Positions 8,671 through 25,646 of a stretch of 64,000 nucleotides of DNA are shown in pieces. The stretch covers positions 806,001 to 870,000 of the forward strand of contig NZ_JAMXMY010000001.1 in assembly GCF_024055795.1 (NCBI RefSeq), given 5' to 3'. The stretch is from Actinoallomurus purpureus. GTDB taxonomy: Bacteria; Actinomycetota; Actinomycetes; Streptosporangiales; Streptosporangiaceae. A model generated the notes under the pieces. It worked only from the letters and a program-made list of their open reading frames with translations. It had not been told where the DNA came from and made no database searches. The number at the start of each line of letters is the position of its first letter. The first letter of the stretch is position 1. Position numbers and translations under genes: made by a program.

Positions 8671-9108
8671 TCCCCAGCCGCCGGACCGGCCCCGCGGCCC
8701 GCGGGATCACATAGTTCAAGGCGCGTCAGTGGTGGTGGCAGTGCCGGCCGAGGGACTCCACGGGCGTCGCGCCGGGGGCAGCGTCGTAGACGTCCTACGA
8801 CGGTCACCAGAACAGACTCGCGACCCGGCCGGAACTCATCGCGGCGGGGGGCGCCCTCGACCGAGCCTGCACGGACCACGTCGGGCCGACAAGTTCAACT
8901 TAGTTACTCTTGGTGATCCAGTGGTGGCGTTCTGGTATCAGAATGCCCCGTGCCCAGGCGACGCGGGGCACCCCCCTTGTGGTCGACCACGGCACCACGT
9001 GCTGCTTTTGATCGAATGCTGAACCATTGATCAGGCGAAATGCCCCGTCACTCATGCATGGTTTCCTTCCGTGGCCACGCCGTTTCCTGTGGTGGACGTG
9101 ACTCGGCC
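8671..9108. other. Gene-poor stretch
   Basis: I see no supportable gene in these 438 bases. Base composition falls around 8890-9060 (TTGATCGAATGCTGAACCATTGATC and neighbours taken as short stretches), which could be an old insertion remnant, but no repeat or coding motif confirms that. Confidence 0.4.
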
Positions 9109-15448: not shown

Positions 15449-15613
15449 GACAGCGGACGCCGCCGGCCGGTGACGCCGGCCTGCTCTGGAGGGCGGCTCC
15501 CGGCGGTGGGCGCTCACGTGTGGTGGCCGGTGCCGCCGCAGGGGTCCGTATCGGCGTGCGCGGTGGCGGCCGCGGATGAGAGCCACGCGCCCGCAGGACC
15601 GGCGACCCGTCAG

Positions 15614-15772
15614 CGCCTGCCGGCCGACGAGACGTTCCCCGACTCCTTCGTCGACGTGCTGCTCGACGGCTACGCCGCCATGCTCGCCGGGCCACCGCCG
15701 GTCCTGACCTCCACGGTCGAGGGCATCACCGGCGTCCCGCCGCGATCGCTGCGCCAGTGGGCCGCCGACCAC
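15614..15772 (+). pseudogene. C-terminal remnant of NmrA-like NAD(P)-binding protein
   Basis: FPDSFVDVLLDGYAAMLAGP and GITGVPPRSLRQWAADH match the C-terminal end of NmrA-type atypical short-chain reductases. The Rossmann N-terminus is missing upstream, and the 3' end is cut by the left terminal repeat of the Tn3 transposon. Pre-insertion coding can be followed across the element into the right flank. Confidence 0.6.
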
Positions 15773-15835
15773 GGGGTCCGAGTAGGAACGGAACAGAAAA
15801 CCGGTGCAGCCGTCAAATCTTTTGACGGGCAGTGA
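15773..15835 (+). repeat. Left terminal inverted repeat of Tn3 element
   Basis: This 63-bp repeat begins GGGGTCCGAGTAGGAACGG and is identical to the reverse complement of 25531-25593. It contains an internal palindrome, CCGTCAAATCTTTTGACGG, near its inner end. Confidence 0.95.
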
Positions 15836-15857
15836 ACAGCGCTGCCAGGGTGCGCCC

Positions 15858-16142
15858 ATGAGTGACGACCCGACGATCGGTTTCCTGAAGGCGGACGTGG
15901 CGCGGTTCTGCGCCGGGCTGGATGAGCTGGCCCCGGCGATCCGGCTGCGGCTGCTCGTGCGGCTGCGGGCCGCGCTGGACGAGGTGACGGACGCGGCCCT
16001 GGATGAGGGTATGGCCGCGGCGAAGGCGGAGGGCTGGGGGCTGCGGCAGATCGGTGGTCAGGTGGGCCTGTCGCACGAGAAGGTCCGCTACCGGCTCGCC
16101 CAGGCCGCGGGCAGGGACGAGCCGGCCGGAGAGCTGTCCTAG
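15858..16142 (+). CDS. Small HTH-like protein of the Tn3 element
   Basis: This 94-residue acidic, mostly helical protein ends with GWGLRQIGGQVGLSHEKVRY, a helix-turn-helix-like segment. It starts 22 bp inside the left terminal repeat. Its stop overlaps the tnpA stop by 4 bp in convergent orientation. The GTG-free start ATG at 15858 lies after GGGTGCGCCC, a weak ribosome site. It may regulate transposition or act as an accessory protein; no named family is recognised. Confidence 0.65.
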   Translation: MSDDPTIGFLKADVARFCAGLDELAPAIRLRLLVRLRAALDEVTDAALDEGMAAAKAEGWGLRQIGGQVGLSHEKVRYRLAQAAGRDEPAGELS

Positions 16143-19100
16143 ACCGTGGTGGTCGTCTTCTCGGGCTTGGCGGTGGAGCGGAGCTGTCCGCCCTGGACCT
16201 CGACTGGCAGGGCGAAGCTGTAGCGGCCGTGGAAGTTGATGTGAGCGAACTTCAGCGGTGAGAGCCGGGCGATGTCCTCGTCGCGGACGTGGATGCCCTC
16301 GGCCCGCATCTCGGCGATGATCTTCTGGAAGTACACCGTGTTCCACAGGACAACGATGTTGAGCATCAGTCCCAGTGCCCCCAACTGATCTTCCTGACCC
16401 TCTCTGTATGACTGCCTGAGTTCGCCCTTCTGTCCGTGGAAGATCTTGCGGGCGAGTTCGTGGCGGGATTCCTGCCGGTTGAGCTGGGTGTTGACGCGGC
16501 GCCGCAGGAGTTCGTCGGTGAAGTACGTGGACAGGTACGCGCTGCGGTCCAGCCGGCCGAGTTCCATGACGGCCTTGCCGGTGGGGGTGGGCTTGCCGCC
16601 GGGTGCGAGGACGCGCAGGACCTCGGAGGCTTTGATGGTGCCGGAGTGCAGGGAGCCCGCGAGGCGGAGCAGCTCGTCCCAGTGGGTGGTGATCTGCTTG
16701 ACATTGATCTTGTCGCGGGTGACCGGGTTGAGCGGGCCGTAGTCGGCGTCCGGGTCGACGCGGTAGAGGGTGGCGCTGCCGACGTCCGCGAGGCGCGGGG
16801 AGAACTGGTAGCCCATGAGGCGGAAGAGCCCGAAGACGATCTCGCTGGCGCCGTGTGTGTCGGAGGTGATCTCGACCGGGCGCAGCGCGGTCTCCTGCTC
16901 GAGGAGGCCGTCGAGGATGTAGAAGGAGTCGCGCTGGGTGCCGGGGATCAGGATGCCGTGCAGGCCGCTGAACTGGTCCGAGAGGAAGTTGTAGAACGTC
17001 ACTCCGCGCCGGCGGGTGCCGAAGTACTTCGGGTTCGGCCCGGAGTTGAGCGTGCGGATCGGGGTGACGAAGCGCAGTCCGTCGGCGGAGGCCAGCTCGC
17101 CGCCGCCCCATGCCTGCACCAGGGGCAGGCGCATGTGGTAGTCGACCAGGCGGGCGTTGGCCGTCGAGAGGGTCTGGGCGCGGATGTAGTTCTGCTCGAC
17201 CCAGAACAGTCGGTCGCGGTTGAGGGCGTCGACGCCGTCGTGGACGATCGGCTCGATGCCGACGTTGGTGGCCTCCGAGGTGAGGACCGCGGCCACGGAC
17301 AGCTGAAGGTCGTCCATGCGCGAGTTGGCCTCGGAGACGTGGGTGAAGTCGGACAGGTAGGGCACCCAGGAGTTGACCTCCAGCACGATCTCGGGGAGGT
17401 CGACGGCGGGGATGCGCGCTTCGATCTCCTTGTTCAGGTCGATCAGAGAGTCGGGTTCGGCGAGGCGGTCCAGGCTGGTGAGGATGATGCGGTCGCGGCC
17501 TCCCTGCTGCTCGATGCGCACGTTGGGGTTGGCTGCCAGGCCGTCGGCGAACTCCCGGTGGGCCTTGTCGAGCCGGTCGGTCCAGGCTTTGAGGATCTTG
17601 TCGGGCTTGGGGTCGAGGTCGAGTTCCTCGCAGACCCGGGTGCGGGCCGCCTCCCACGCCGCATCTTTCAGCAGGCGGGCGTTGGGGTCGCCCCACTTGC
17701 GCAGGCCCGGCACGAACACCTCGTGCCGGTGCAGCGCCGTGCGCAGGGCTTCGGCGGAGGCGACGATCAGGGCGCGCTTCTCGACGCTGCCCACGGGCAT
17801 CGGCGGGGGTGGGAAGACCAGGCGCCGCCAGGCGGAGGTGAGGACCTTGGCGGGGACTTCCCATGCCTGGATGAGGCGGCGCCGGCCCTTGAGGGACTTC
17901 ACGAAGTCGATCGCGTCCAGCACCGGTTCGCCCGCCGGGCTGGCCTCGAAGGTGAACGTCTTGAGCAGGCCGGGCAGGAAACGGGCGATGGTGTTGTAGC
18001 GGGCGGCGAGCATCTGCTCGGCGCCGTCGTCGGGCTGCTGCGCGAGGACCTTGACGGTGTCGGCCGCGGCGTGGACGGGGCCGACATCCATCGCGTCGAG
18101 CATCGCGCGTACGTCGCCCTCGGGGTCGGCGGCCGTCGCGCAGATCGCCAGCCAGGCTTTGCGCAGCTCGATCGCGGCGGCGTCCAGATCCTTCAGCGTC
18201 CGCAGCCTCTGCTTGGTCATCTTGGTGGCGGAGCTGCGGATGATGTCGCCCATCACCAGGTCAAAGACCTCGATCGCCTCGTCGGCGGCGAGCTGCGGCA
18301 TGACCGCGGCGAACGCCACCAGGGTGGCCAGGCGCCGGTCCCCGGCGAGGTCGGAGACGGCCTGGGCGCGGGCGGCCTTGGCGAACCGCACCAGCGCCTG
18401 CAGCCGTCCCGGCGGTATCACGTCCAGGTCCCACGCACTGCCGCCGAAGGCGCGCAGGGATTCGTAGCGTTCCAGGGCCTTGCCGACCCCGCCGGCGGAG
18501 ATGTCGCGCGGCGAGCGGCGCAGGCGGTCCAGCTCGGACAGGCGCTTGCCCGCAGGCACGACGACCAGCTGCTGCAGACGTGCGGCCTGCTCCGTGGTCG
18601 GAGCCGCGGCGAGGGTGGCCCACAGCCTCCTCTCGGCGCGCTCGCGGGTGCCGGAGACCAGGCGTTCCAGCACGGTCACCCCGGGCAGCACCACCTTCTT
18701 GTCCACCAGACGCTTGGTCGCGAGGTCGAACAGCAGGGTGGGGCGCTCGTTACCGATCCAGGCCCGCTGGTACATCCAGCGGGCGAGCGTGAACCACTGG
18801 TCGAACTCGAACTTCGTGTACCCGTACTCCTTGCGGATCTGCTCCTGGTGGTCCCAGCGGGCCTCACCGGCGCCATACCCCGTGAGCTCACCGGGGTCCA
18901 ACCCGAGCTGCTCAGCGACATAGCCGACCACCACGGCGGGCACCTGCTCTGGGTTCTCCAGGAAGGTGCCCAGGTAGCGGATGGTGCCGAGCTGGACGGC
19001 CCAGCCGATCCGGTTCCGCGGGCCGCGGGCGGCCATTGCCCGGCGCCGCGCGGTCTGATCAAGCAGAAAGGACCCGGCGAGCTGTCCCTCGTCCGGGTCC

Positions 19101-19156
19101 ACGGTGAAGTGACCGAAGCGCCTGCGCTGTTCGTCGCTCAGAAAGCTGGTGGGCAC
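16139..19156 (-). CDS. tnpA: Tn3-family transposase
   Basis: This 1005-residue transposase performs replicative DDE transposition into a cointegrate. The N-terminus (MPTSFLSDEQRRRFGHFTVD) is the DUF4158-type end-binding region. The C-terminal catalytic domain shows ITSDTHGASEIVFGLFRLMG and QFSPRLADVGSATLYRVD, carrying the Asp residues, and GLMLNIVVLWNTVYFQKII near the Glu. Length is full for the family and the frame is intact. It reads toward the left repeat, convergent with the small HTH gene. Confidence 0.97.
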   Translation of the reverse strand: MPTSFLSDEQRRRFGHFTVDPDEGQLAGSFLLDQTARRRAMAARGPRNRIGWAVQLGTIRYLGTFLENPEQVPAVVVGYVAEQLGLDPGELTGYGAGEARWDHQEQIRKEYGYTKFEFDQWFTLARWMYQRAWIGNERPTLLFDLATKRLVDKKVVLPGVTVLERLVSGTRERAERRLWATLAAAPTTEQAARLQQLVVVPAGKRLSELDRLRRSPRDISAGGVGKALERYESLRAFGGSAWDLDVIPPGRLQALVRFAKAARAQAVSDLAGDRRLATLVAFAAVMPQLAADEAIEVFDLVMGDIIRSSATKMTKQRLRTLKDLDAAAIELRKAWLAICATAADPEGDVRAMLDAMDVGPVHAAADTVKVLAQQPDDGAEQMLAARYNTIARFLPGLLKTFTFEASPAGEPVLDAIDFVKSLKGRRRLIQAWEVPAKVLTSAWRRLVFPPPPMPVGSVEKRALIVASAEALRTALHRHEVFVPGLRKWGDPNARLLKDAAWEAARTRVCEELDLDPKPDKILKAWTDRLDKAHREFADGLAANPNVRIEQQGGRDRIILTSLDRLAEPDSLIDLNKEIEARIPAVDLPEIVLEVNSWVPYLSDFTHVSEANSRMDDLQLSVAAVLTSEATNVGIEPIVHDGVDALNRDRLFWVEQNYIRAQTLSTANARLVDYHMRLPLVQAWGGGELASADGLRFVTPIRTLNSGPNPKYFGTRRRGVTFYNFLSDQFSGLHGILIPGTQRDSFYILDGLLEQETALRPVEITSDTHGASEIVFGLFRLMGYQFSPRLADVGSATLYRVDPDADYGPLNPVTRDKINVKQITTHWDELLRLAGSLHSGTIKASEVLRVLAPGGKPTPTGKAVMELGRLDRSAYLSTYFTDELLRRRVNTQLNRQESRHELARKIFHGQKGELRQSYREGQEDQLGALGLMLNIVVLWNTVYFQKIIAEMRAEGIHVRDEDIARLSPLKFAHINFHGRYSFALPVEVQGGQLRSTAKPEKTTTTV

Positions 19157-19249
19157 TGGCCCGCTCCTTGATCCGTCGGCGTGATTCGCGCGCGACGGTG
19201 CCAGGTGACCTGACGGTGTGTGAGGTGATCCCTGATTTCAGCCCAGAGC

Positions 19250-19272
19250 ATCACCCCATGTGATGGGGTGAT
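19250..19272. repeat. Hairpin upstream of tnpA
   Basis: ATCACCCCA and TGGGGTGAT form a perfect 9-bp stem with a 5-base loop, about 95 bp upstream of the tnpA start. It may be a regulatory operator or terminator-like structure. No T-tract follows. Confidence 0.5.
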
Positions 19273-19440
19273 TGCGGCTACTTGGCGGGCGGCGGACTCC
19301 AGCCAGTGCAGACCAGCTGTCCGCGGGCCGCGCGAGCGTCGGCGAGCACGGCGTCGTACTCGGCACAGACCGGCGAGATCATCGAGACGGTCACGGTGAG
19401 CAGGACCTTTGCCCGGCCTTCGCGGACCTGGTCGATAGCG

Positions 19441-19682
19441 GCCTGCAGATGGGGCTTCTCCGCAGGTTCGTGGTCTACGACCGGCCCAACCGCGAGGCGC
19501 CGTTCAACCCGGACGACGGCTTCCGCTACACCGCCGAGGGGACTCCGGCCTGCGTCCACCCCTACAAGATCGGGCTGGAGCCGGACCGTACGGCACCGGC
19601 CTACGAGCCGGAGCCCCTCGACGACGAGCCGACTACACCGCGGGGGCGAAGTCGATGGCGACGGTTCGCCCGCGGTCGGTGA
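19441..19682 (+). pseudogene. Unidentified coding remnant in transposon
   Basis: The frame reading FVVYDRPNREAPFNPDDGFR and then ACVHPYKIGLEPDRTAP has very strong third-position G/C bias, so it was once a gene. It lacks a credible start, and its end merges with sequence coding on the opposite strand. I do not recognise the family. The adjacent 19278-19440 also shows coding-like bias on the minus strand (LLTVTVSMISPVCAEYDAVL), again without a start. Confidence 0.35.
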
Positions 19683-19706
19683 CACCGATCGACTCGTACT
19701 TGGCAC

Positions 19707-19775
19707 GTTGAGCAGGCGGTAGTACTCCGCGCTCGACTCCCAGCTCATGCCGCCGATCAGCCCGATGGTCAACAT
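19707..19775 (-). pseudogene. Aspartate/glutamate racemase N-terminal fragment
   Basis: ATG at 19775 begins MLTIGLIGGMSWESSAEYYR, the signature N-terminus of the aspartate/glutamate racemase superfamily, behind a good GAAAGGAAGGACC site. Similarity ends after 23 codons, where unrelated sequence is joined. The gene was truncated during assembly of the transposon cargo. Confidence 0.65.
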
Positions 19776-20060
19776 GTCGGTCCTTCCTTTCTCGTTTCTC
19801 CTGCGGGAACTGTGCCGTATCAGGGCCAGGGGGGACGTCAAGCCCACCGGGGACGAGCATGAACACGGTCCATGCAGACGCCAACTGAAGGCACGGATCA
19901 CCGAGGTCGGGGAGCCGTTGGTGGCTGCATGTCATGGCCCGGGTCACGAAATCGGCGCACGATCAGCCGGGCCGGGCCGGGATCCGGTCGGCCGATCGTG
20001 CGCCGGCGAACGCGATGTACACGGAGCGGTGTGTCTGGTGTGCGTCTGGCTCTTGTGCGG

Positions 20061-21632
20061 TCAGCGGGCGGCGAGGGCCTCGGCGGTGACCGCAGGTGTT
20101 GTGTTCTTGGGGCCGCGGAAGACGATGTAGACGAGGAGGGCGCCCATGACGGCGGCGCCTGCCCACATGGATTGCTGCCAGCCGTCGACGAAGGACTGCT
20201 GGGCTGCGTGGAGCAGGTCCTGGGCGTGCGGGCCGGCGTTGCCGGCCGCTTCGACGGCGTTGGCAACGCCGTCGCGCGCGGTGTCCGCGGTTCCTTGGGG
20301 GATGCCGTGCAGCCGGTTGTCGATGGCGCTGCGGTAGCCGTTGGCCAGCAGCGCGCCGAGCAGAGCGACGCCGAGTGCGGTGCCGAACTCGCGGGTGACG
20401 TCGTTCAGGGCAGAGGCCACGCCTTGTTTGGCGCGCGGCAGGGACGCGGTGATGGCGGTGGTGGACGGGGTCATCGACAGGCCCATGCCCAGTCCCATGG
20501 CGAGCAGTCCGGGCAGGATGGACACGTAGCCATCCTTGACGGAGACGAGCAGGGCCATGAGCACGAGACCGAGTCCGGCCAGCGCGATGCCTGCCGCCAT
20601 GGTGGAGCGGGAACCGATGCCCGCGGCGAGCTTGGGGGCCAAGCCGGAGGTGGCCATCATCATGGCGGCCATGGGCATCATGGCGGCCGTGGACAGCAGC
20701 CCGGACCAGCCGAGCACGGCCTGGAAGAACGGGAAGAGGACCACGCCGATGCCCGCCTGGACACCGAAGACCACCAGCAGTGTGATCGAGCCGCCGCTCA
20801 GGCCGTGCTTGCGGAACAGCCGCACGTCCAGCAGTGCGCTGTCGCGGCGGTGCAGCTCCCAGGCCACGAAGCCGATGGCCGCGAGGAGACCGACGGCGAG
20901 GCTGATCAGAGTGACGGGGGCGGTCCAGCCGCGTTCGGGACCTTCTTGCAGGACGAAGATGAGGCCGGTCACGGCGAGGGTGGAGAGCAGCGCGCCGGCG
21001 GTGTCGAAGCGGTGGGCCGAGGTCTCGCGGGAGTTGGGAACCGACTTCGCCGTCATGGCCAGGGCCGCGAGGATCAGGGCTACCGGCAGGGCGAACAGCC
21101 AGCGCCAGGTGGCGACGTCGACGAGGAGGGCGGAGAGGAACATACCCAGGATGCCGCCGCCGCCGGCGACGGTCCATACGCCGATCGCCTTGCCGCGCTG
21201 TTCCTCGGGGAAGGTGGAGGTGATGACGGCAAGGGTGATCGGCATGATCATCGCGGCGCCGATACCGCTGGCGACGCGTGCGGCGATCATCACCTCCGCC
21301 GTCGGGGCCAGGGCCGAGACGACGGTGGCGACGCCGAAGACGCCCAGTCCGGCGAGGAGCATGGGCTTGCGGCCCAGGCGGTCTCCGATTGCGCCGAGCG
21401 GCAGCAGCAGGGCGGCCAGGGCGAGGGTGTAGATGATGATCCACAGGATCGTGTTCTGCGAGGCGCCGAACTCCACGGCCATGTGGGTCTGCGCGACGTT
21501 CAGCCCGAACACCGAGGCGATGACCGACATCAGCGCGAGGGAGACGGCGATCAGGACCGTCCGCAGCTGACGCGCGTCCGGGCTGCCTTCGCCTCTGGCT
21601 GGCGTGGCTTGTGGGGGCTGGGGTGTGCTCAT
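20061..21632 (-). CDS. DHA2-type (EmrB/QacA) multidrug efflux transporter
   Basis: This 523-residue carrier has about 14 transmembrane helices and exports drugs by proton antiport. GAIGDRLGRKPMLLAG is the A-motif, WRWLFALPVALILAALA follows the antiporter region, and the loop GGGGILGMFLSALLVD fits motif C. The ATG at 21632 (MSTPQPPQATPARGEGSPDA) is preferred over the longer open frame. It follows the flavoprotein gene by 109 bp on the same strand and is probably cotranscribed with it from the XRE-controlled divergent promoter. It is cargo of the Tn3 element. Confidence 0.9.
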   Translation of the reverse strand: MSTPQPPQATPARGEGSPDARQLRTVLIAVSLALMSVIASVFGLNVAQTHMAVEFGASQNTILWIIIYTLALAALLLPLGAIGDRLGRKPMLLAGLGVFGVATVVSALAPTAEVMIAARVASGIGAAMIMPITLAVITSTFPEEQRGKAIGVWTVAGGGGILGMFLSALLVDVATWRWLFALPVALILAALAMTAKSVPNSRETSAHRFDTAGALLSTLAVTGLIFVLQEGPERGWTAPVTLISLAVGLLAAIGFVAWELHRRDSALLDVRLFRKHGLSGGSITLLVVFGVQAGIGVVLFPFFQAVLGWSGLLSTAAMMPMAAMMMATSGLAPKLAAGIGSRSTMAAGIALAGLGLVLMALLVSVKDGYVSILPGLLAMGLGMGLSMTPSTTAITASLPRAKQGVASALNDVTREFGTALGVALLGALLANGYRSAIDNRLHGIPQGTADTARDGVANAVEAAGNAGPHAQDLLHAAQQSFVDGWQQSMWAGAAVMGALLVYIVFRGPKNTTPAVTAEALAAR

Positions 21633-21741
21633 GGATTCCTCACAAAATGGGCATGCCGAGCTGACGCCGGGCAGGGCCGGTCGGCGGGTGAACGGGGTGG
21701 GGCGGGTTGGGCGGGCGGTCGGCCGGGGCCCTGAGGGGATG

Positions 21742-22742
21742 TCAGGGGGCGGGTGTCTCACCCTGTGCTGCGGCGAGCGCGGCGTCGGTGTCCGCGGTGG
21801 CCAGCACGGCGTTGATGTGGGCGCCGGCCAGGGCGCCGGCCGCGGCGGAGGCGCCGACCTGGGCGGCAAGGTCGGTGGCGTTGCCGGCCACCCACACGCC
21901 CGGCACCTCGGTGGTGCCGGCCATGCCGGAGGCGAAGCGGCGGCCCATGTTGTCGGGCAGGTCCTCCATGGGCAGCTTCAGCGCGTCCAGGCCCTCGGCG
22001 CGGGCCTGCATCTGTGTGGCGACCGCGAGGACGCGGCGGCCCACGACCTGGCCGCCGGTCAGGCGCAGCCCGGCGAGGGTGCCGTCCTCGTGGTTGACGA
22101 CCTCCTGCACCGGGGTGTCGACGATGGGGATGTTGCGGGCGGCGAAGCGGGCGCGGGTGTCCTCGTCCAGGTGGGTGCCGTGGGTGAAGTAGGTCAGGTC
22201 CTCGGTCAGTTGGCGGAACAGGAGTGCGTGGTGGACGGAGGCCGGGCCGGTGGCGAGGACGCCGATGGGCTGGTCACGGACCTCCCAGCCGTGGCAGTAC
22301 GGGCAGTGCACCACACTGGCTCCCCAGTGTTCGGCGAGGCCGGGCACCTCGGGCAGCACGTCGCGCAGACCCGTGGCCACCAGGAGGCGGCGCGCGGTGA
22401 TGCTGTGGCCGTCGGCCAGCGCGAGGGAAAAACGCAAGTCCCCGTCTGCTGGGGCGGCAGAGGCCACCTCACCGAAGACGATGTGTCCGCCGTACTGGCG
22501 TACCTGCTCCCGGCCCCGCCGAAGGATCTCGCTGGGCGGGGTGCCGTCCAGCACGATGAAGCCGTGCATGGCCGCGGTCGGCGCGTTGCGCGGGGAGCCG
22601 CTGTCGATCAGACGACCGAGCGGCGGGAGCGGGCCAGCATCAACGCACCGTTCAGCCCCGCGGCGCCCCCGCCGATCACCACCGCGTCGACGGTCCCACC
22701 AGGCAGTGCGTCGCTCGCGTATGGAGAAGTCGTCACAGCCAT
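21742..22742 (-). pseudogene. Thioredoxin-reductase-like FAD/NAD(P) oxidoreductase, frameshifted
   Basis: From ATG 22742 the frame reads MAVTTSPYASDALPGG and then VDAVVIGGGAAGLNGALMLA, the FAD-binding GxGxxG, but stops at about 22611. The rest (IDSGSPRNAPTAAMHG onward) continues in another frame to 21742, so one base appears to be missing near 22610-22614. The downstream part keeps HCPYCHGWEVRD, the redox CxxC of thioredoxin-reductase-like dithiol oxidases, and a C-terminal GNATDLAAQVGASAAAGALA. It is either a true frameshift or a sequencing error. Otherwise the gene is well preserved, which favours recent damage or an error. Confidence 0.8.
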
Positions 22743-22830
22743 GTCCTCCTACTCTTTCATCGTGCGTGGCCCCAGACGCTGCGGACCATCTGCACACGAC
22801 GCTAACCCCACATTGCACCGAAGGCATACA

Positions 22831-23436
22831 ATGTTGCCCATGACGCAAGAAAGGGGAGAGCTGGACAGCCTCGTACGCAAACGCATCCGCGCCCTGCGGG
22901 TGGCGCAGGGCTTGTCACTGGAAGAACTGGCCACCCGCTCCCACCTCAGTCAGTCCTCGCTGAGCCGTATCGAAAACGGCCAGCGCCGCCTCGCACTGGA
23001 CCAGCTGGTCACCCTCGCCCGCGCCCTGGACACCACGCTGGACCAGCTCGTGGAGACCGCCACCGACGACGTCATCACCAGCCCGACGGTCGACAGCACC
23101 TACGGGCGGATGCGCTGGACCCTGAAGGCCGACCCCGGCATGAGCGTGGTGCGCCAGCGCCTGACCGACCCCCCGCCCGACAATCCCGCCCGCATGCGCG
23201 CCCACCCGGGGCGCGAGTGGCTCGTCGTACTGTCCGGCACCGCGATCCTCATGCTCGGCCAGCGCCGCTTCCGCATCGAGACCAACCAGGCCGCCGAGTT
23301 CCCCACGATGATGCCGCACGCGATCGGCACCGAGGGCGGACCCTGCGAGATCCTGGGCCTCTTCGACCACAACGCCCGCCGCGGCCACCAGCGCGACGAC
23401 GGCGACGGCAGCGACGCTCAAGGCCCTCCCGAATGA
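22831..23436 (+). CDS. XRE-family regulator with cupin sensor domain
   Basis: This 201-residue protein has an XRE HTH at residues about 15-70 (LSLEELATRSHLSQSSLSRI), followed by a cupin-like beta-barrel (HPGREWLVVLSGTAILMLGQ and MMPHAIGTEGGPCEILGLFD). The ATG at 22831 has GAAGG 8 bp upstream; a second ATG at 22840 is possible. It is divergent from the flavoprotein/efflux genes and 128 bp upstream of the methyltransferase, so it is placed to control the entire cargo in response to a small ligand bound by the cupin. Confidence 0.88.
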   Translation: MLPMTQERGELDSLVRKRIRALRVAQGLSLEELATRSHLSQSSLSRIENGQRRLALDQLVTLARALDTTLDQLVETATDDVITSPTVDSTYGRMRWTLKADPGMSVVRQRLTDPPPDNPARMRAHPGREWLVVLSGTAILMLGQRRFRIETNQAAEFPTMMPHAIGTEGGPCEILGLFDHNARRGHQRDDGDGSDAQGPPE

Positions 23437-23564
23437 CGGCGCGAGCCACACGACGACCTCCGCAGCGGTGCCCTTTTGCGCGTCAGGCAGTACCTACGGC
23501 CATCGTCTTGCGCAAATAGGGAGACAGTACGCCTCTGACGCATGGTCGACCTAGGGTGAAGAGC

Positions 23565-24437
23565 ATGAACCAAGCACACACGCACACCCCCCACCACGGC
23601 GTTTCGCACGGCCACCACCACGAGCAGGACACCAGCGGCCAGGCGGAGATCCTCGACCTGGACGCCGAGGTCCTCGCCGAGCACACCGCCTCCATCACCG
23701 CGTCGCTGCCACTGAAGACCGCCCCCGGCCACATCGTGGACCTCGGCTGCGGCACGGGCACGGGCACCTTCGCTCTCCTCGACCGCTTCCCCGACGCGCA
23801 CGTCACCGCCGTCGACACGTCCGCCGAACACCTTCAGCGCCTGTGCACCAAGGCGTGCACCCGCGGCGTCGAGGAACGCGTACGCACCGTGCAGGCCGAC
23901 CTCGACGACGACGCCTGGCCCGACCTCGGCTCGCCCGACCTGATCTGGGCATCGGCATCGATGCACCACATGGCCCACCCCGAGCGCGCGCTGCGCACCG
24001 TCCACGACACGCTCGCGCCCAACGGCCTGTTCGCCGTCGTCGAACTGGCCGGCCACCCCCGCTTCCTACCCGAGAATGCCCCCACGGACCGGCCCGGCCT
24101 GGAAGAGCGCGTCCACGCCGCAGCCGACCGCCGCCAAGCCGAGCACATGCCCCACCGCGGCGCCGACTGGGGCCCGATGCTGACCGCCGCCGGCTTCACC
24201 GTCGAGGATGAACGCACCATCGCCGTAGACATCGAGGGCGACCGCAGCGAAGCGATCGGCCGCTACGCCCTCGGCGTCCTGCAGCGCATCCGCAGCGTCA
24301 TCGCCGACAGGCTCTCCCCCGAGGACCTCTCCGCGCTCGACCGACTCCTCGACACCACCAGCCCGCACAGCATCCTGCGCCGCGACGACCTGACGGTACG
24401 CACCGAACGCACCGTCTGGGCCGCCCGCCGCGCCTGA
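23565..24437 (+). CDS. Class I SAM-dependent methyltransferase with His-rich N-terminus
   Basis: This 290-residue Rossmann methyltransferase has motif I VDLGCGTGTGTFALLDRFP, followed by VTAVDTSAEHL and PDLIWASASMHHMAHPERAL. The first 25 residues hold nine or so histidines (AHTHTPHHGVSHGHHHEQD), suggesting metal binding. ATG 23565 is preferred to GTG 23556 because GGGTGAAGAGC then serves as ribosome site. It shares direction with the XRE gene. Whether it methylates a thiol, arsenical or other xenobiotic is unknown. Confidence 0.87.
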   Translation: MNQAHTHTPHHGVSHGHHHEQDTSGQAEILDLDAEVLAEHTASITASLPLKTAPGHIVDLGCGTGTGTFALLDRFPDAHVTAVDTSAEHLQRLCTKACTRGVEERVRTVQADLDDDAWPDLGSPDLIWASASMHHMAHPERALRTVHDTLAPNGLFAVVELAGHPRFLPENAPTDRPGLEERVHAAADRRQAEHMPHRGADWGPMLTAAGFTVEDERTIAVDIEGDRSEAIGRYALGVLQRIRSVIADRLSPEDLSALDRLLDTTSPHSILRRDDLTVRTERTVWAARRA

Positions 24438-24511
24438 CCCCCCAATACGGGGTGCCACGTCCGGCGCGGTCACGCGGAACCAGGCCGCCACGTCCGCATG
24501 ACGCAAGGGCA

Positions 24512-24635
24512 TTCTCAGAAATGACCAGATGCGAGAGTTCTGAGAACAGGCTCCGAGCGACCACGTTTCCGCAGGTCGCCATTCGCAAAACTCCTGTCAA
24601 AACCCGGGTGTTCTGCGAAGCACTTCTGAGAGCCT
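24512..24635. promoter_or_regulatory. Probable res site of the Tn3 element
   Basis: Just upstream of tnpR lies a locally AT-richer segment with inverted subsites. TTCTCAGAA...TTCTGAGAA (24512-24546) is a perfect 9-bp dyad, like a crossover subsite I. TTCGCA...TGCGAA (24582-24619) forms a second subsite, and CTTCTGAGAG near 24625 may be part of a third. Spacing and position match resolvase binding sites, which also serve as the tnpR promoter. Confidence 0.7.
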
Positions 24636-24641
24636 GATCTC

Positions 24642-25553
24642 ATGCAGCTGACGCCCGATCAAGCCGCAAATGCGGTAGAACGCCACGACTGCCCCAAGTG
24701 CGAAGTCCCTGCCGGGAGTCCGTGCCGCACCCGCGGCGGCAAGACCGCCACCAAGTACCACACCGCCCGCTTCATCCTCGTGCCCGCGCTCCGCGAAGAA
24801 CTCGAAGTTCTTGTTCCCGAAGACCGCGGCCCGGGACGAACGTGGAAGCCGGGGCCGCCGGTCGAGGAGATGCCCGCCGCTCCGCCGGCCAGGCCCATCC
24901 GGATCGGGTACGCCCGCTGCTCGACCGCAACGCAGGAACTGCAGAGCCAGCTCGACGCGCTCGCCCGCGCCGACTGCAAGAGCGTCTACTCCGAAAAGAT
25001 CAGCACGAGGATCAAAACGCGGCCCGAGCTGGAGAAGGCGCTGAAGCTCGCGTACGACATCAAGGAGGCCGCCCCCGACCAGGAGGTCATCCTCACCGTC
25101 CATGAGCTCAAGCGCCTGGCGCGGAACGCAGCCGAGCTGATGACGCTCTCCGGCCAGCTCCAGGCCGCCGGCGTCCAGCTCGAACTCCTCACCGGACCGC
25201 TCACCGGCATCCACGACCCCAACGGCATGGGCGCCATGTTCTTCGCCGTACTCGCCGCCGCCGCACAGATCGAGCGCAACTACATCCGGGAGAAGACCCT
25301 GGAGGGCCAGGTGTCCGCCGCATCCAAGGGCAACCATGGCGGACGGCCCAAGGTTATCGACGACGACATGCTCACCTTCGCCCAGGCGCTCAAGGACAAG
25401 GGCGTCCCCGTCCCCGAGATCGCCAAGAAGCTCGCCATCAAAAGCGGCAAGAACAAGGACCAGCACCCCTCGGTCGCCTCGGTGTACCGGGCCCTCGCCG
25501 AAGCCGACGAGGGGACGAAAGCTGCCCTTCTCACTGCCCGTCAAAAGATTTGA
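24642..25553 (+). CDS. tnpR: Serine resolvase with N-terminal zinc-finger
   Basis: This 303-residue protein begins with a CPKCEVPAGSPCRT...H motif (C17, C20, C28, H40) of the Cys3His type seen in phage and plasmid DNA-binding proteins. A resolvase catalytic domain follows, with nucleophile Ser94 in IGYARCSTATQELQSQLDAL and the Arg-containing LKRLARNAAELMTL. An HTH tail ends it. It resolves transposition cointegrates at the adjacent res site. Its last codons (LLTARQKI, stop) lie inside the right terminal repeat. Confidence 0.93.
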   Translation: MQLTPDQAANAVERHDCPKCEVPAGSPCRTRGGKTATKYHTARFILVPALREELEVLVPEDRGPGRTWKPGPPVEEMPAAPPARPIRIGYARCSTATQELQSQLDALARADCKSVYSEKISTRIKTRPELEKALKLAYDIKEAAPDQEVILTVHELKRLARNAAELMTLSGQLQAAGVQLELLTGPLTGIHDPNGMGAMFFAVLAAAAQIERNYIREKTLEGQVSAASKGNHGGRPKVIDDDMLTFAQALKDKGVPVPEIAKKLAIKSGKNKDQHPSVASVYRALAEADEGTKAALLTARQKI

Positions 25554-25593
25554 CGGCTGCACCGGTTTTCTGTTCCGTTCCTACTCGGACCCC
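25531..25593 (-). repeat. Right terminal inverted repeat of Tn3 element
   Basis: This is the exact reverse complement of 15773-15835 over 63 bp. It supplies the last eight codons and stop of tnpR. The MerR gene begins 53 bp beyond its outer edge. Confidence 0.95.
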
Positions 25594-25646
25594 ACGCTGA
25601 CGGCACGGGTTCGGCCGGTCCGGCGGCACGCCCTACGCTGGGCGGC

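Follow-up and report, generated by a model that had tools for sequence, protein, structure and literature searches.

A Tn3-family transposon with a four-gene cargo cassette in the genome of Actinoallomurus purpureus

The 9.25-Mb genome of Actinoallomurus purpureus carries, on a contig of 1.0 Mb, a 9.8-kb element that is very likely a complete class II (replicative) transposon belonging to an actinobacterial clade of the Tn3 family, with a captured four-gene cassette and a recombinase module exchangeable at res. It lies at 15773–25593 of the window, the whole 64-kb stretch of DNA that was analysed (806001–870000 of the contig). An initial annotation of this DNA had described an intact-looking Tn3-family transposon with non-transposition cargo. 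The family and the cargo are confirmed by the terminal inverted repeats (TIRs), tnpA, the recombinase gene and four cargo genes. As for intactness, the description fits the ends, tnpA and the recombinase but not the cargo oxidoreductase, which has a frameshift near 22.62 kb. The kind of element is ordinary and the copy is well preserved; the cargo is of moderate interest, and two features are testable. Less familiar are a helix-turn-helix (HTH) gene tied to the close transposases and a conserved dyad within the long repeats.

The gene order is HTH protein, tnpA, major facilitator superfamily (MFS) protein, oxidoreductase, XRE-cupin regulator, S-adenosylmethionine (SAM) methyltransferase, res-like region and serine recombinase. 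The features of the element and its flanks are:

15608–15772, forward: left flank with the final 55 codons of an NAD(P)-binding NmrA-like gene that lacks its 5' part; probable insertion target
15773–15835, forward: left TIR, 63 bp (GGGGTCCGAGTAGGAACGG...), 63/63 identical to the right end and common to relatives
15810–15828, no strand: dyad CCGTCAAATCTTTTGACGG inside the left TIR, its GTCA-N7-TGAC core nearly invariant among relatives
15858–16142, forward: HTH protein, 94 aa, beside the left TIR, with conserved motif EGWGLRxIG...SHExVR
16139–19156, reverse: tnpA, Tn3-family DDE transposase, 1005 aa (NF033527, PF01526, PF13700)
20061–21632, reverse: DHA2/EmrB-type MFS efflux protein, 523 aa (PF07690)
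21742–22743, reverse: HlmI-like dithiol oxidase, frameshifted (matches to PDB 4ntd, DepH and GliT)
22840–23436, forward: XRE regulator with cupin domain (PF01381, PF07883)
23565–24437, forward: class I SAM-dependent methyltransferase (PF08242, PF13649 and others)
24513–24641, no strand: probable res, predicted site I at 24513–24547 (TTCTCAGAA-N17-TTCTGAGAA)
24642–25553, forward: serine recombinase (resolvase), 303 aa (PF00239; N-terminal zinc finger PF24623)
25531–25593, reverse: right TIR, 63 bp, identical to the left end
25594–25601, forward: right flank, eight bases read as a continuation of the NmrA-like frame (A-D)

Transposase and terminal repeats

The two ends had been reported as identical over 63 bp, and both direct sequence comparison and blastn give 63 matches of 63; arms extended to 73 nt are 95% complementary. 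The insertion had also been called probably recent, a claim that is not supported; TIR identity alone gives no insertion date. In a whole-genome search the TIR pair was present once in the source genome. The left end had no match in the 7 other genomes of the genus sample (8 genomes, the A. purpureus source included), and matched at E ≤0.001 in 10 of 341 family genomes, own included. Similar ends around TnpA proteins were found in other actinomycetes; the initial annotation had been prepared to give up its reading if no other genome carried them. An exact-match search of viral contigs with the outer 24 TIR bases found 0 stretches.

Both tnpA and the recombinase gene (tnpR) are full length, as first proposed, with essentially complete coverage of their Pfam profiles (PF01526, 1–389 of 389; PF00239, 2–144 of 145). 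TnpA scores 888.8 bits against NF033527 (cut-off 500), and its residues 44–982 align with the transposase of Tn4430 (PDB 7qd8, E 1.4e-111). In this alignment, counted by eye, D, D and E stand opposite D679, D751 and E881 of Tn4430, which we take to be the catalytic residues. The catalytic domain of the recombinase matches invertases and the Tn3/gamma-delta resolvase in the PDB. The res-like site of the initial annotation was also recovered; its predicted site I has inverted 9-bp arms, and 24513 is the outer edge of the first arm. Judging from the families to which these proteins belong, TnpA would recognise both ends and join donor and target into a cointegrate, which the serine recombinase would then resolve at res. 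The element is probably still mobile.

The space between tnpA and the MFS gene (19.2–20.06 kb) was considered for a further gene, which was rejected; it has four reading frames, none with a Pfam match. A near-perfect palindrome, ATCACCCCATGTGATGGGGTGAT, lies upstream of tnpA at 19250–19272 and is complete only in the window among 11 aligned sequences; the RNA fold of the 144 nt around it has a z of -2.58.

Probable exchange of the recombinase module

Twelve of the 20 plasmid-collection matches listed (71 records in all) match the recombinase end only. Among these listed matches, nine start at element base 8741, which is position 24513, one at 8739 and two at 8763. In five plasmid-borne modules fetched from those starting at 8741 (L130–L134), homology begins exactly at 24513 and continues at 82–85% DNA identity over ~1 kb, and the sequence upstream of this point is unrelated. 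In L087, one of the two matches starting at 8763, it starts near the middle of site I.

Two of these modules were also retrieved within longer stretches (L130/L196 and L133/L195), which are Tn3 elements on Streptomyces plasmids carrying mercury-resistance genes, or a two-component system and an ABC transporter. They share the recombinase-res module with the window element and differ in the rest: their transposases are 38% and 40% identical to its TnpA over 999 residues, they have no match to its TIR type, their own inverted repeats (49 and 53 nt) are of different sequence, and their cargo is other. Module L132 adjoins mercury genes too; L131 does not. Sharing of this kind between elements with other transposases and ends fits exchange of the recombinase-res module as a block, by shuffling at site I. 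Breakpoints at res site I are already described for Tn3 elements (PMC7157771), so module exchange would be a process known from another group.

Relatives of the element

The same element, with both ends and the same cargo, is present in Streptomyces albipurpureus (L023) at ~94% DNA identity. It measures 7.35 kb end to end, its tnpA lacks an internal part, and its proteins are 96% (recombinase), 98% (methyltransferase), 96% (XRE) and 95% (MFS) identical to those in the window. In Actinacidiphila soli (L016) a single end is found together with the HTH and MFS genes; its tnpA is in two parts separated by ~5.8 kb, and the oxidoreductase is present in part, at the edge of the contig. The left end (TIR, HTH gene and tnpA) is common to the plasmids of NBC_01240 (L062) and NBC_01174 (L063) and to L009, L010 and L015, at 86–90% DNA identity with different contents; L062 has a recombinase at its right end and a cargo different from that of the window element. 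L219 is a cousin with HTH protein, TnpA, recombinase and both TIRs. No description of the element or its subgroup was recognised in a literature search limited to open-licence papers and judged, except for the papers cited here, from listings.

Several other loci touch on the family. Plasmids of Streptomyces NBC_01238 (L091, 20.0–29.4 kb) and NBC_01240 carry elements of the same family with much the same cargo; that of NBC_01238 has no annotated tnpA, and an IS3-family transposase occupies its place. In G106:C1 (L075–L076) a TIR pair spans 19.6 kb with AAATT on both sides; a second Tn3-like transposase gene interrupts its tnpA, which looks like a nested insertion. On Streptomyces plasmids (L087, L088, L089, L092, L093 and L094) there are single TIRs for which the fetched sequence (up to 20 kb each side) showed no partner. 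These are possible solitary ends of the same family, and some adjoin a recombinase gene. The source genome itself has more distant Tn3-family transposase genes or pieces (35–49% protein identity), on the same contig (G000:C11, ~672–676 kb and 765–772 kb; L071 and L070), 50–150 kb from the element, and on contig C9 at ~142 kb (L073).

The cargo cassette

Six PDB sequences match the oxidoreductase at E ≤1e-15, in the order 4ntd (E 2.3e-63), 3fbs, DepH (9.8e-29), a putative thioredoxin reductase and GliT (7.5e-19) for those ranked. The record 4ntd is titled 'Thioredoxin reductase', and we take it to be HlmI. The window oxidase shares this sequence relation and a CxxC motif (CPYCHG) with the dithiol oxidases HlmI, DepH and GliT and with DnoP of Pseudomonas. 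It differs from them in lying on a transposon, beside a methyltransferase and an XRE regulator, and in being broken in this copy. HlmI is reported to oxidise reduced holomycin, and loss of hlmI leads to a build-up of S-methylated intermediates; an MFS efflux protein, HlmH, is also encoded in the S. clavuligerus holomycin cluster (PMC3826145). DnoP is reported to protect Pseudomonas against dithiol-type toxins (PMC11317636). The MFS protein of the cassette scores 215.6 bits against TIGR00711, slightly below the cut-off of 230.2. By analogy with these systems, the cassette between tnpA and res would most likely be a defence that detoxifies or exports a small toxin, possibly of the dithiol (thiol/disulfide) kind.

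Three points weigh against this reading of the cargo. The toxin class is taken from an enzyme family that is widespread: of 150 family genomes, counting the source genome, 114 have an oxidoreductase match at E ≤1e-40 and 42 have the methyltransferase. The PDB matches of the methyltransferase are generic and lend the toxin reading no specific support. Lastly, the frameshift near 22.62 kb puts the FAD-binding N-terminus of the oxidase out of frame, so that this part of the window copy is not intact and the cassette may not be functional here; L023 reads through at this place, with GGGAAG in frame. A defence-system reading of the cargo was also tried and rejected: only the XRE and methyltransferase proteins matched, and these matches were read as generic.

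The cassette also occurs outside the element. Among 21 relatives of the methyltransferase (L136–L156, 65–82% identity), the XRE gene adjoins in 20; nine have the oxidoreductase gene inside the 1.5 kb that was fetched, and eight others have an MFS gene beside the XRE gene. Ten relatives of the oxidoreductase (L166–L175, at least 66% identity) have the XRE gene in nine cases, the methyltransferase gene in seven and all four genes in five, one of these five having an MFS protein merely 46% identical; seven of the ten places lie in genomes that are also in the methyltransferase set. As these places are in family genomes and outside the element, the cassette exists apart from it and is probably the older of the two.

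The cargo might instead be an unremarkable chromosomal cassette that brings the element no selective benefit and has been decaying since its capture. The frameshifted oxidase and the presence of the cassette elsewhere in family genomes would both agree with this. Against it, L023 retains all four genes with a readable oxidase in spite of the internal loss from its tnpA, and L016 retains the MFS gene and the part of the oxidase that is present on its contig. We regard such decay as somewhat unlikely, and prefer the reading of the cassette as a defence.

Two other places in the source genome have related genes: contig C7 at 84.3–84.8 kb (L072) has a fragmentary XRE-methyltransferase pair with pieces 61–85% identical, and contig C29 at 11.7–12.6 kb (L074) has an oxidoreductase of 44% identity, with a weak methyltransferase match nearby.

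Insertion site and target duplication

The element sits between arsR and merR, next to an NmrA-like remnant that is without its upstream part. A full-length homologue (G001) matches PF13460 and PF05368; the 55-aa remnant itself has no Pfam match. The element probably arrived in one insertion into this remnant, upstream of merR. The initial annotation had called the insertion clean, with CACG (or CCACG) on both flanks, and had stated that rejoining the flanks restores a continuous sequence. The repeat is present only if TIR bases are borrowed. At the GGGG boundary the junctions read GACCAC/GGGG...CCCC/ACGCTG, and the flanks share just two bases in register; CACG appears at offsets of +1/-1, which assigns the outermost base of each TIR (G on the left, C on the right) to the flank, and CCACG appears at +1/-2. 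In 5000 random flank pairs drawn from the rest of the window, a 4-base repeat at offsets ≤1 was reached by 7.0%, and a 5-base repeat by 5.0% at offsets ≤2 and by 9.3% at offsets ≤3. As 5–9% of random flanks match at that length, the repeat is barely above chance and is weak evidence on its own.

The continuity of the rejoined flanks fared better. The NmrA-like gene was compared with 29 other loci from a search of 150 genomes (29 genomes matching, own included; L105 and L125 are one genome), all of which extend beyond the DH motif that they share with it. For L108 and L118 the position was extrapolated, as the alignment ended four residues early. The residue after DH is A in 25 of the 29 homologues and T in none, and AD follows in 9. 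The collapsed join, GACCACGCTGAC, translates as D-H-A-D, and the uncollapsed join as D-H-T-L. The collapsed join thus continues the frame with residues that homologues support, which suggests that a target duplication was probably once present and was later altered or blurred. This frame favours one insertion whose duplication has since been lost or altered.

Tn3-family transposons usually duplicate 5 bp of their target, and related TIR pairs show what these elements do elsewhere. The flanks were listed for the window and for nine pairings in eight other loci or locus pairs, and for L217 and L219. There are 5-bp duplications exactly at the ends in L022 (GACTT), L075+76 (AAATT), the 10.7-kb pairing of L090 (AAGAC) and L219 (GATCT), and one with a one-base offset in L062 (CAGTA). 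Duplications of 6 bp flank the elements in L009 (AAACCG) and L010 (TGTTCC), and that of L009 can also be read as 5 bp.

Several observations count against a simple insertion. An exact duplication is absent at the GGGG ends, where several relatives have 5 bp, so the insertion cannot be called clean, and the offset repeat is close to what chance gives. A duplication is likewise missing from three of the nine related pairings (L011, L023, and L090 in its 2-kb pairing), and in L217 none is clear. The empty site, which is GACCACGCTGACGG in all versions of the lost-duplication idea considered and had been proposed as a check, was absent from the 85 loci searched, and the two flanks were joined in none of the 8 genus genomes or of the plasmid collection (left flank only there). 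In G003 and G007, the genomes of the same genus with the best left-flank matches, arsR is followed at that place by a VOC/glyoxalase-family gene (Pfam supports the arsR and glyoxalase genes of G007 and the arsR of the window), so the remnant is restricted to this lineage or to genomes outside the sample. On the right, the match to G003 upstream of merR starts at 25632, and no homology is shown between 25601 and 25631.

The ends could therefore be genuine and the flanks joined by a rearrangement, such as an adjacent deletion or recombination between two copies, so that this was never a simple insertion. The missing duplication, the 5'-truncation of the NmrA-like gene together with the VOC/glyoxalase gene of G003 and G007, and the further Tn3-like pieces near 672 and 766–769 kb of the same contig would all be in keeping with this. 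Such a history would not account for the collapsed join, which keeps the frame with conserved residues, and slippage or homopolymer loss at the CCAC/GGGG/CCCC junction might explain the lost duplication. A rearrangement is thus distinctly unlikely. It is highly improbable that the family makes 4-bp duplications with a 62-bp TIR and that CACG is such a duplication, intact: CACG is exact if the TIR begins GGGTCC..., but the clean-ended relatives use a GGGG or GGCC boundary with 5 bp, offset 5 bp or 6 bp, and no listed pairing has 4 bp as its longest end duplication. A single insertion with an altered duplication remains our preferred reading.

The small HTH protein and the dyad in the repeats

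The 94-aa protein encoded beside the left TIR has an all-helical AlphaFold model with a mean confidence score (pLDDT) of 89.7, and no Pfam, NCBIfam, PHROG or PADLOC match. A fold search gave 715 matches at E ≤10, none of which reached E 0.001; the sigma-domain and other HTH proteins that headed the list fitted poorly and were rejected as fold relatives.

The gene follows the close transposases. In a comparison of 20 loci, it lies beside tnpA in seven of the eight with TnpA at least 57% identical (own included) and in none of the twelve with TnpA 39–42% identical. The eighth close locus, L202, has a broken tnpA, and its other end, in L075, has the HTH gene. A TIR match is present in six of the seven loci with both genes, L205 having none. 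The association is not strict: in L021 and L022 the TnpA match reaches at least residue 992 with no HTH match, and in L077 1.6 kb separates the HTH match (45%) from the detected TIR. In the other cases the gene adjoins the TIR whichever way tnpA faces, convergent in the window and in tandem in L017 and L020. L220 repeats the DNA of L017, as L218 does that of L013.

The dyad was followed through 78 TIR hits, none dropped, which make 31 distinct sequences. The four core pairs are complementary in 30, 30, 31 and 30 of the 31. These pairs barely vary and so cannot show covariation; in a paired-change test, only pair 39/55 exceeded shuffles (22/31, p 0.04), and neither the outer pair 38/56 (p 0.12) nor the inner pairs 44/50 and 45/49 did. 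The TIRs were found with a profile of 24 hand-picked TIRs that itself contained the dyad, so its conservation is partly a product of detection. A promoter reading of the TIR edge (TTGACN...CAGGGT), made by eye from the alignment, is not claimed; a sigma-70 promoter search of the element found 0.

The HTH protein is probably a regulator. Its binding to the dyad in the repeats is guessed from their co-occurrence, a pattern that common descent by itself would also give. A more far-reaching proposal, which is speculative and more apt to fail than to hold, is that these elements are a new actinobacterial Tn3 subgroup in which the HTH protein is a third core protein, binding the GTCA-N7-TGAC dyad and linking its expression, and perhaps the assembly of TnpA too, to the ends, and that the subgroup spreads a dithiol-toxin resistance cassette (oxidase, methyltransferase and pump) outside biosynthetic clusters.

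Comparison with known transposons

In general layout the element agrees with the Tn3 family as described (PMC7157771), in which TnpA has ~1000 aa, the inverted repeats are at least 38–40 bp and a serine resolvase is encoded beside res, with exchange at site I. It departs from that layout in that its cargo separates tnpA from the recombinase gene, with res site I facing the cargo, and in the small HTH gene beside one end. Tn5401, a TnpI-type member of the family, has a tyrosine recombinase, TnpI, in contrast to the serine recombinase here (PMC7157771).

Tn4556 of Streptomyces fradiae is also an actinomycete class II element, with tnpA at one end, a recombinase gene near the other and metabolic cargo between them, in its case a methyltransferase and an isoprenyl diphosphate transferase (PMC6403206). 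As reported there, it is 6.6 kb long, has 38-bp inverted repeats and makes 5-bp duplications, and its resolvase is assigned to the phage-integrase family PF00589. The window element has 63-bp repeats, 9.8 kb, other cargo and a serine recombinase of PF00239; the two were compared by description only.

Significance

The element adds a well-delimited, apparently complete member to the Tn3 transposons of actinomycetes, and its relatives help to fix the ends and the duplication. The plasmid modules indicate that res-site shuffling takes place between actinomycete Tn3 lineages with different transposases too. The association of the HTH gene with the dyad bears on how long Tn3 ends are used. According to one report, all dithiol oxidases characterised to date apart from DnoP are encoded in biosynthetic clusters (PMC11317636); here a cassette of the dithiol-oxidase type lies on a mobile element.

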